Below are positions 31,146 through 37,565 of a stretch of 64,000 nt of DNA, piece after piece. The DNA is from Natrinema salinisoli (GTDB taxonomy: Archaea; Halobacteriota; Halobacteria; Halobacteriales; Natrialbaceae): the NCBI RefSeq assembly GCF_020405205.1, contig NZ_CP084469.1, positions 434,001-498,000 of the forward strand, given 5' to 3'. How positions within the stretch are numbered: position 1 is the stretch's first letter; the number at the start of each line of letters is the position of its first letter. The notes below the pieces were generated by a model that saw only the letters and a program-made list of their open reading frames with translations, was not told the origin of the DNA and made no database searches. The position numbers were made by a program, and so were the translations under genes.

Positions 31146-31967
31146 CTACCGTTGGAGGAATTCGTCGTCGAAGGTGAGGCTCCCCTCGTCGACGGGCGTG
31201 AACTCGGCGGCGACCAGGTTACCCGCCGGATCGAAGATTTCGGCCTCGTCTCGCATCGCGTACAGCCGGTCGACCTCCGTTTGCGCGCCCTCCTGGGGGA
31301 AGAAGAGGAACCGCTGGTTCGTACCGAGGTACTGGGCGTGGACGGTGTTGTAGTCGGTGAACAGGCCGCTCTGTTCGATGTCCTGCGGGATCCAGCCCTG
31401 TGGCCCCGAGGTGATTTCGAACAGGGCCTTCGAGTAGAAGTCATCGGGACGAACGGCCGCTTCACCGCCGGCCCCCTCCAGGATCTCGAAGTCCTCCCCC
31501 TCCTCGATCTGGAAGGGGAGATCGGCGTCGGTGAGCGGTCGATACTGGACGCGAAGGAGGTTTTCAACCGCCAGCGCGTCGTCGGCCCGGTCCGACAATC
31601 TGTCGTCGAACACGTACACCTCTCCTTCCGTGACGGCGGTGTCCGCCGGAACGAAGAGATACCCCTGATCGTTGGTGTTGAAATGCTCGATGACGCGCGC
31701 GTCGTAATTTTGCAGCACGTCCAGGTCGCCCACGACGGGGGAGTCTTCCAGCGGCGGTGAGACGACCCGAAAGACGGCACCCGAAAAGTACGCCGCTCGA
31801 GTCGCGATTCCCTCCCGAAATTCCCCGTTCGTACCCCCGTTCTCGTTCTGTGCCGTCGCTTCCCCTCCCGCGACGCTCCCGGTCGCACCGAGTCCCAGCG
31901 CGGCCGAGGCGACTGTGCTCCGCTTCACGAACCGGCGCCGTGACTGCTGGATCGGCTGGTCAGTCAT
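31146..31967 (-). CDS. Tat-exported haloarchaeal protein of unknown function
   Basis: The 273-residue protein has a clear twin-arginine signal (SRRRFVKRSTVASAALGLGATGSVAGGEATAQ) with likely cleavage near residue 40. The mature part is soluble and beta-rich (AYFSGAVFRVVSPPLED, YLFVPADTAVTEGEVYVFDD, RFLFFPQEGAQTEVDRLYAM). I recognise no enzyme motif. It lies 144 bases upstream of purD on the same strand, but a shared operon is not clear. Confidence 0.85.
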   Translation of the reverse strand: MTDQPIQQSRRRFVKRSTVASAALGLGATGSVAGGEATAQNENGGTNGEFREGIATRAAYFSGAVFRVVSPPLEDSPVVGDLDVLQNYDARVIEHFNTNDQGYLFVPADTAVTEGEVYVFDDRLSDRADDALAVENLLRVQYRPLTDADLPFQIEEGEDFEILEGAGGEAAVRPDDFYSKALFEITSGPQGWIPQDIEQSGLFTDYNTVHAQYLGTNQRFLFFPQEGAQTEVDRLYAMRDEAEIFDPAGNLVAAEFTPVDEGSLTFDDEFLQR

Positions 31968-35968: not shown

Positions 35969-36517
35969 ATGAGTGAACAAGACACGACAGGCGACTCGAG
36001 GCGGTCGTTCATGGCGAAGGGCGCCCTCGCGACAGGCGCACTGACGCTCGGAACGGGTGCCTTCGGGACAGCTACGGTCGGTGCACAGGAGAACGAAGTA
36101 GCGGTCTTCGCGTCGGGTTTCTTCCCCGGCGCGGAGTTCACCGTTCTCGACGAGCTCCAAACGAGCACGACAGTCGAGGTGTTACAGTTAGAAGGGGAAA
36201 CAGTTGACGAGATTTCCCAACCCGACGAGTGGACCGGGCATATCATCCGATACGAAATCGGATCGGAATCGGGAATCACGACGTTCATGTTCGTGCGCGG
36301 TGGGAGCTTGAGTGCCGGTGATAGTGGAACGATCGCCTCGGACGCATCGGTGCTAAGTCCCGATCTGAATCTCATAAACACGTCACTGAACGGTGATGAC
36401 GTTGAGACGGACGAGACGGACGAGACGGACGAGATGAACGAGACGGAAGAGACGGAAGAGACGGACGATAACGGTGTGGACGTGAATGTGACGACTGACG
36501 AGAACGGAGGTGAATAA
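35969..36517 (+). CDS. Tat-exported protein, paralogue 1 of tandem family
   Basis: The 182-residue protein has a Tat signal (DSRRSFMAKGALATGALTLGTGAFGTATVGAQ) and then a domain of about 90 residues: VAVFASGFFPGAEFTVLDEL, TTVEVLQLEGETVDEISQPDEWTGHIIRYE, MFVRGGSLSAGDSGTI and SPDLNLI. The C-terminus is a low-complexity (Asp-Glu-Thr)n tail encoded by GACGAGACG-type repeats. The domain recurs in the next two genes. I know no name for it. The start at 35969 follows the family Tat rule; the in-frame upstream ATG at 35846 would bury the signal. Confidence 0.82.
   Translation: MSEQDTTGDSRRSFMAKGALATGALTLGTGAFGTATVGAQENEVAVFASGFFPGAEFTVLDELQTSTTVEVLQLEGETVDEISQPDEWTGHIIRYEIGSESGITTFMFVRGGSLSAGDSGTIASDASVLSPDLNLINTSLNGDDVETDETDETDEMNETEETEETDDNGVDVNVTTDENGGE
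36506..36513 (+). promoter_or_regulatory. Shine-Dalgarno, paralogue 2
   Basis: GGAGGTGA lies 6 bases before the ATG at 36520 and overlaps the end of the upstream coding sequence. In this mostly leaderless genome it argues that paralogue 2 is translated from an internal site on the same mRNA. Confidence 0.7.
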
Positions 36518-36519
36518 CA

Positions 36520-36843
36520 ATGGTTCAAGATGATGGAACTGTCCTGGTGTACACGTACAATTTCGAAGCCGGCGAGAGCTTCGACGTCGTCTCGGAGCTC
36601 GAGACGTCTACGACGGTGCGGGCTCTGCAGACCGCCGAAGAAGAAACCGTCTCTGAAATCTCTCAGCCGGACGAATACAATGGTTACGTCATTCGATACC
36701 AAGTCGACGACGGACCACAGGGACCGACGGTCCTCATGTTCAGCCGTGATGCAACGTTCGATAGCGGTGATACCGGGACGCTTGGCGAAGATGCGCAGAT
36801 CTTCAGCACTGAACTGAATCTCATCGCAACGCCGTTGGATTAG
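36520..36843 (+). CDS. Paralogue 2 of tandem family, no signal peptide
   Basis: The 107-residue protein consists only of the domain seen in the upstream gene: VLVYTYNFEAGESFDVVSELETSTTVRALQ, SEISQPDEYNGYVIRYQVDD, MFSRDATFDSGDTGTLGEDAQIFSTELNLIATPLD. It has no signal peptide, so it would stay in the cytoplasm unless carried out with its partner. It starts 2 bases after the stop of paralogue 1, with a strong SD site. Confidence 0.85.
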   Translation: MVQDDGTVLVYTYNFEAGESFDVVSELETSTTVRALQTAEEETVSEISQPDEYNGYVIRYQVDDGPQGPTVLMFSRDATFDSGDTGTLGEDAQIFSTELNLIATPLD

Positions 36844-37004
36844 AGCTGCTCTCCCATTTTTAGCGACAGAGACCGATGACGCTTGCCACGGTTGCAACGG
36901 ATCGAACGCCGTACTGGTAGCGACGCGAGGACGATCGGGGACGAACGGAGTCGCGACCGCCGATGCGAGGGCAGCGAACCTGCACGCCGATACATCATCG
37001 ATAC

Positions 37005-37565
37005 ATGAAATCAAGCCAAGAGAGGAGCGGATCGACCGGATCTGACGGCCCACGGACCGATCCGACGACTGCTGCGACGAATCGGCGGTCGGACACCACC
37101 GGCGCAGCCGATCGTAATTCGTCCGAACTGCCCCGCTCAAACGACGCCGCCGACGCATGCTCGTCCGAAGGAGGGCCACCGGACGACGGCGACGCATCGG
37201 AACGATCCGTGCTGATACCGATGGACGGGTATCGGCCGGGGATGACAGTCCGCGTAGTCGATCGGTTACCGGCGCCGATCGTCGTCGAACTCCTCGAACT
37301 CCCGAACGACGAAACCGTTCCCGTCCTGACGCGACCTGACGAATACACCGGCTATGTCGTCCGATCCGAACCCGGTGGAACGCAAGTCTGGTCGACGGTG
37401 ATCGTATTTACGCGTGATTCGCTGGAGAGCGGTGCGTGCTACGCGTTCGACGTCGGTGCGCAGGTGTTCAGCACGCAATTGTACCTCTTTGAGACGACGG
37501 CCCGTCGCATCGGCTCGACCGATTCGGCACCCGACGGGAACGACGGCGAGTGTAGTAGCAACTGA
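37005..37565 (+). CDS. Paralogue 3 of tandem family, long polar N-terminus
   Basis: Residues about 75-170 of this roughly 186-residue protein again carry the domain: VLIPMDGYRPGMTVRVVDRLPAPIVVELLELPNDETVPVLTRPDEYTGYVVRSE, VIVFTRDSLESG and AQVFSTQLYLFET. The N-terminal 70 residues are Ser/Thr/Asp-rich and probably disordered. There is no Tat or Sec signal. It is more diverged than the other two (it has lost the hydrophobic LNLI ending). A start at 36963 is also possible. Confidence 0.75.
   Translation: MKSSQERSGSTGSDGPRTDPTTAATNRRSDTTGAADRNSSELPRSNDAADACSSEGGPPDDGDASERSVLIPMDGYRPGMTVRVVDRLPAPIVVELLELPNDETVPVLTRPDEYTGYVVRSEPGGTQVWSTVIVFTRDSLESGACYAFDVGAQVFSTQLYLFETTARRIGSTDSAPDGNDGECSSN

Follow-up and report, generated by a model that had tools for sequence, protein, structure and literature searches.

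Three adjacent genes of Natrinema salinisoli, here called A, B, and C, encode copies of a single domain that forms an undescribed haloarchaeal family; their order and the tight coupling of A and B are conserved, the domains are under purifying selection, and only A carries a twin-arginine (Tat) signal. We infer that A, B, and C assemble with one another, that B and C are carried out of the cell on the signal of A as Tat hitchhikers, and that the resulting paralogous hetero-oligomer acts outside. The probability of this co-export is put at about 45%.

Three Tandem Paralogues With Different N-Termini

The window is the whole stretch of 64,000 nt that was analyzed (Natrinema salinisoli, GCF_020405205.1, NZ_CP084469.1, 434,001-498,000), and all positions are given in its numbering. 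The three genes lie on the plus strand and are flanked by genes that were named by eye from their sequences, i.e., DHFR and a DUF255/YyaL-like gene. The features are:

35969..36517, plus strand: gene A, predicted Tat-exported paralogue, 182 aa (translation; orthologues in cassettes)
35969..36088, plus strand: predicted Tat signal peptide of A, with SRRSFMAKG, h-region, and VGA|Q cleavage region (translation, motif survey)
36098..36385, plus strand: shared domain of A (profile match, E 5e-37)
36386..36514, plus strand: acidic Asp/Glu/Thr tail of A, including two N-x-S/T sequons (translation)
36506..36513, plus strand: putative Shine-Dalgarno sequence GGAGGTGA for B, within the last codons of A (sequence; similar junctions in 23 further cassettes)
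36520..36843, plus strand: gene B, signal-less paralogue, 107 aa (translation; B clade; model with pLDDT 90.7)
36541..36834, plus strand: shared domain of B (profile match, E 1e-38)
37005..37565, plus strand: gene C, third paralogue, 186 aa, with a polar N-terminus of 68 residues and no signal (most likely start, from orthologues)
37209..37496, plus strand: shared domain of C (profile match, E 7.5e-30)

The sequence-only reading had described three adjacent paralogues with a common domain of about 90 residues, and both statements hold. A search of the own genome found exactly three copies of the domain, namely A, B, and C (against B, A has an E-value of 5e-23 and C one of 1.5e-11). The alignment covers the full length of the domain, and its 23 invariant columns are distributed across all 90-odd residues. 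The domains of A and B are 47-48% identical, those of C and B about 33-35%. The repeated ending FSxxLNLI, which had also been claimed, is exact in B only; A ends with LSPDLNLI and C with FSTQLYLF.

Protein A had been read as a Tat substrate with an acidic tail, and its layout agrees with this: the signal MSEQDTTGDSRRSFMAKGALATGALTLGTGAFGTATVGAQ is followed by the domain and a D/E/T tail of about 43 aa. It has the S/T-R-R-x-F-x-K motif, a moderately hydrophobic h-region, and an A-x-A-like cleavage site (SRRSFMAKG...TATVGAQ) of Tat substrates, and it matches the NCBIfam model TAT_signal weakly, with 13.2 bits below the curated cut-off of 16.7. B, as had been stated, is devoid of an N-terminal twin-arginine signal. 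Its 107 aa, starting with MVQDDG, represent the bare domain, and its start coincides with the position of the mature N-terminus of A. In C only polar residues, without an N-terminal twin-arginine signal, precede the domain, and a short tail follows it. The polar N-terminus had thus been recognized correctly, while its length is likely 68 rather than 70 residues. The start at 37005 (MKSSQERSGS...), rather than at 36963, is a judgement and the most likely one, because the N-termini of the C orthologues align there.

In the tails of all family members with a twin-arginine (RR) signal 67 N-x-S/T sequons were counted, compared to 27 +/- 4.5 in shuffled tails, and by the same count the tails of members without a signal contain no sequon. 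The sequon-rich tails of the Tat-tagged proteins would fit N-glycosylation at the surface.

An Undescribed Domain Family of Haloarchaea

The domain of about 97 residues has no match above the curated cut-offs in Pfam and NCBIfam and no sequence match in the PDB (E below 1e-3). The profile search thus did not lead to a known family, nor is the similarity of the paralogues confined to low-complexity parts, and the domain represents a family that is undescribed in these three sequence libraries. Matches to SH3_16 (in 4 of 81 members, with 0.005 as the lowest E-value), to fn3, and to eS6 are weak and scattered and were set aside. A literature search found no publications on the family. Some members are labeled "calcium-binding protein" in plasmid records (L074 and L075, on plasmids of Natrinema halophilum and Natribaculum luteum); this label is unsupported, as no matching family or domain was found.

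The AlphaFold2 model of B, which was built from an alignment of 81 sequences, has a pLDDT of 90.7. No confident fold match to it was found in the PDB (best Foldseek E 0.39) or in BFVD (best E 0.13). The best VIA-align Z in the PDB is a weak 4.7, to small OB-like barrels such as EutN, the Pf3 ssDNA-binding protein, and eS28, which share no sequence similarity with B, and this value is far below the level that shows kinship. An OB-like fold of the domain is therefore only a lead. The window contains a further Tat-exported haloarchaeal protein on the minus strand (31146-31967, P0002 family) with two internally repeated domains. Its duplicated domain resembles that of A, B, and C in length and pattern, and 26 of 121 family genomes match it at E<=0.001 (weak matches included), often near this locus. 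Profile comparison with the A/B/C domain gave a probability of only 28-65%, so that it is possibly a distant cousin.

Relatives of the domain were found in 65 of the 391 genomes of the class that were searched, and the domain profile detected them in 72 of 125 genomes of the Natrialbaceae, the family of N. salinisoli. In a sample of 295 genomes of the phylum the domain occurred within the order only. Among the genomes searched, homologues are confined to haloarchaea, chiefly to the Natrialbaceae. Some family members are carried by plasmids, and the viral contigs that were scanned for the domain yielded no relative. A contig scan with a single protein as query matched Natrinema zhouii only.

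Conservation of the Cassette and of the A-B Junction

The arrangement A-B, usually followed by C, recurs across ten genera (one genome per species was compared). The median pairwise dN/dS values for the domains of the cassette orthologues are 0.26 (A), 0.36 (B), and 0.33 (C), and therefore all three domains are maintained. The window neighbors thyA, DHFR, and the yyaL-like gene were rejected as partners, because other cassettes occupy other contexts. At the corresponding position of related genomes, with thyA/DHFR on one side and the yyaL-like gene on the other, different family members are present (L043-L046, L048-L050, L072), in many cases a pair of which one Tat signal is intact and the other degenerate. 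A damaged cassette was observed in one genome (G356, L067:14440-16638), in which no A was found, the frame of B is truncated, C is intact, and the neighboring gene for an amine-oxidase-like protein is also truncated.

Translation of B from an internal Shine-Dalgarno site had been proposed from the sequence, and the comparison of cassettes is in agreement with this proposal. The ATG of B lies two bases past the stop codon of A, with GGAGGTGA at 36506-36513 inside A, and at all 24 A-B junctions examined B starts at +2, +1, or -1 bases relative to the stop of A. Nearly all of the 24 have a purine-rich, Shine-Dalgarno-like stretch at the 3' end of A, and therefore the common C-terminus of A, NGGE or NGGD, would partly encode the ribosome-binding site of B.

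Signal-Less Members Accompany a Tat-Tagged Paralogue

The N-termini of 193 members, which come from 102 gene clusters, were classified, the first set with a regular expression and hydrophobicity (a few were corrected by eye), the second set by eye, so that some classes are judgements. By this classification RR and an h-region are both present in 113 members, a further 41 have a signal-like h-region but a non-canonical motif in place of RR (RH, RQ, RY, RD, KR, and others), and 39 are signal-less. The latter are spread over 31 clusters, and in each of these 31 an RR paralogue is present and is the 5'-most member. Tagged and untagged members are thus encoded together, as is typical for Tat hitchhikers. 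When labels were shuffled, on average 14 such clusters lacked an RR member, with a minimum of 4 in 20,000 shuffles, and when the first 64 clusters were reduced to genus-by-pattern representatives, one cluster without RR was observed versus 9.7 expected; shared ancestry persists in both comparisons and the pattern is largely inherited from a few duplications, and therefore the shuffles overstate it and should not be taken as P values.

In 36 clusters a single RR member has no nearby partner, and four clusters contain only a member with a degenerate signal (L172, L177, L181 on the plus strand, and the damaged L067). For these four an RR neighbor is therefore not required, and a fixed rule that every cluster has one RR member was dropped.

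In the domain tree, which is based on few columns and has many open forks, the B clade comprises 21 rows, every one signal-less (SH-aLRT 99), and the C clade 22 rows without a canonical Tat signal (SH-aLRT 98). Judged from the sequences, signal loss occurred several times, i.e., in the B clade, in the C clade, in L066, in L114/L115, and in L182/L183. In L066 and L114/L115 B groups with its own A, which could be due to gene conversion instead of independent loss. In L182/L183, which belong to another family, the copy without a signal shares 71-77% identity with its own A, and the tight A-B junction is lacking, with gaps of 109-146 bases. In three related genomes (L121, L123, L124) the middle gene retains a signal-like h-region without RR.

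Co-Export as the Preferred Reading

We propose that the three paralogues are the subunits of a single hetero-oligomer that is exported. A would be made first, and ribosomes would restart at the Shine-Dalgarno sequence in its last codons, so that B would be produced beside A, while C would be produced from the same region after B. The small, beta-rich domains would fold and assemble in the cytoplasm. The Tat translocase transports folded complexes, and it would export this assembly via the single twin-arginine signal of A. Being carried by A, B and C would be free to lose their own signals; that of B would have been lost exactly to the mature N-terminus and that of C replaced by polar sequence, while other tandem copies would have retained reduced RH, RQ, RY, or KR remnants. 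Outside the cell the acidic, sequon-rich tail of A would hold or display the complex. The sequence-only reading had suggested a system of several parts, possibly an exported complex or a chaperone pair. The conserved order, the coupling, and the restriction of signal-less proteins to the company of a Tat-tagged one agree best with a system of several parts that may be an exported complex, whereas nothing specific was found in favor of a chaperone pair.

Several observations favor co-export: the constant company of a 5'-most RR paralogue in the 31 clusters, the recurrence of signal loss, which partly offsets shared ancestry, the retention of coupling at all 24 junctions together with purifying selection on the domains, the truncated B frame in the damaged cassette of G356, in which no A was found, and, as background, the ternary hitchhiking of PaoABC and the large predicted share of Tat substrates in haloarchaea (see below). 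Against it count the four clusters with a degenerate signal only and the lack of the sequon-rich tail of A in B and C, which would also fit a life in the cytoplasm. It is conceivable, though we think it rather unlikely, that A acts outside while B (and C) remains in the cytoplasm and binds the same ligand or performs a related job, so that one transcript would supply inside and outside versions. The signal-less state throughout the B clade, the purifying selection on B, and the absence of the acidic tail would all be explained. However, if B functioned on its own in the cytoplasm, it would be expected to occur without A now and then, and this was seen in none of the 31 clusters; moreover, the RR-less h-region of the middle gene in L121, L123, and L124 is expected from decay and not from selection to stay inside.

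A role of B as a dedicated chaperone or inhibitor, which would cap the paralogous interface of A in the cytoplasm until export and remain behind there, seems improbable. The tight coupling behind A would suit this role, and dedicated cytoplasmic chaperones are common among Tat substrates (PMC4273604), but the 36 clusters with a lone RR member indicate that the domain needs no partner, and C is left unexplained. Still less credit is given to neutral decay, i.e., redundant tandem copies that lose their signals without any joint function. Many paralogues with half-decayed signals (RH, RQ, RY, KR) and the damaged cassette of G356 are what this process would leave behind, yet purifying selection acts on the domains of B and C, their order is conserved across genera, and the start position of B and its coupling to A have been retained.

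An Amine-Oxidase-Like Neighbor in Other Genomes

In ten related genomes the cassette adjoins a divergently transcribed gene for a Tat-exported protein of about 620 aa, here called c3, and its close subfamily (at least 54% identity) has 13 members, of which 10 are cassette-linked. No family match was found in Pfam and NCBIfam. The predicted structure has a pLDDT of 70, and the top 50 Foldseek rows are all copper amine oxidases (best Z 21.3, 342 residues aligned, rmsd 5.3); a copper amine oxidase fold is thus predicted. An alignment comprised eight linked copies (L054:8770-10638, L117, L073, L116, L057, L061, L056, L066) and 20 unlinked copies (L134-L153). The topaquinone motif N-Y-D/E-Y/N is absent in all eight linked copies, which have SSHE, SSNE, or TNHE, while all 20 unlinked copies have kept the motif with the topaquinone tyrosine (NYD, NYN, or NYY). 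The histidine of HPAQY is invariant in the alignment, and the H-x-H pair of copper ligands is not evident. The linked copies resemble one related group, and therefore the loss of the tyrosine motif was probably one event. Some c3-like proteins (L057:8645-10894; L140, L150, L151) have an N-terminal cupredoxin-like (blue copper) stretch. Taken together, c3 appears to represent a divergent haloarchaeal family that is missed by Pfam; its members are Tat-exported proteins, and a copper amine oxidase fold is predicted for them.

The genome of N. salinisoli contains c3 as an unlinked copy only (C1:637313). The link between cassette and c3 is therefore a lead that lies outside the system of the window, and c3 is a possible partner of the cassette in some lineages. 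A general haloarchaeal strategy might even be envisaged, in which tandem copies of a single domain leave the cell as a hetero-oligomer on one Tat signal, the siblings repeatedly shed theirs, and the complex, in part of the lineages, cooperates on the cell surface with an exported protein that resembles copper amine oxidases but has lost the catalytic tyrosine; this broader picture is speculative and, as a whole, doubtful.

Comparison With Known Systems

If co-export of A, B, and C is true, the family offers a natural series with intermediates of signal decay, with which it can be asked when proteins can give up their export signals, and localization predictions that rely on signal peptides only would be wrong for such siblings. 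It would also provide a test case among haloarchaea, which depend on Tat to a large extent; 39-55% of the secreted proteins of haloarchaea are predicted Tat substrates (PMC2945643).

Several features of the cassette have a counterpart in Tat hitchhiking, which has been shown for a handful of bacterial cofactor enzymes. The binary hitchhikers of the hydrogenase HybOC type resemble A and B in that one tagged and one untagged subunit are co-expressed, but they are non-paralogous, cofactor-bearing enzymes of bacteria. In PaoABC of E. coli two signal-less subunits ride on the Tat-tagged PaoA, and export requires all three (PMC4273604). Like the haloarchaeal cassette, it has the operon order A-B-C, with a Tat signal on the first subunit only and B and C signal-less. 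However, PaoABC consists of unrelated subunits of a cofactor enzyme with a chaperone, PaoD, whereas A, B, and C are copies of one domain that would be exported together.
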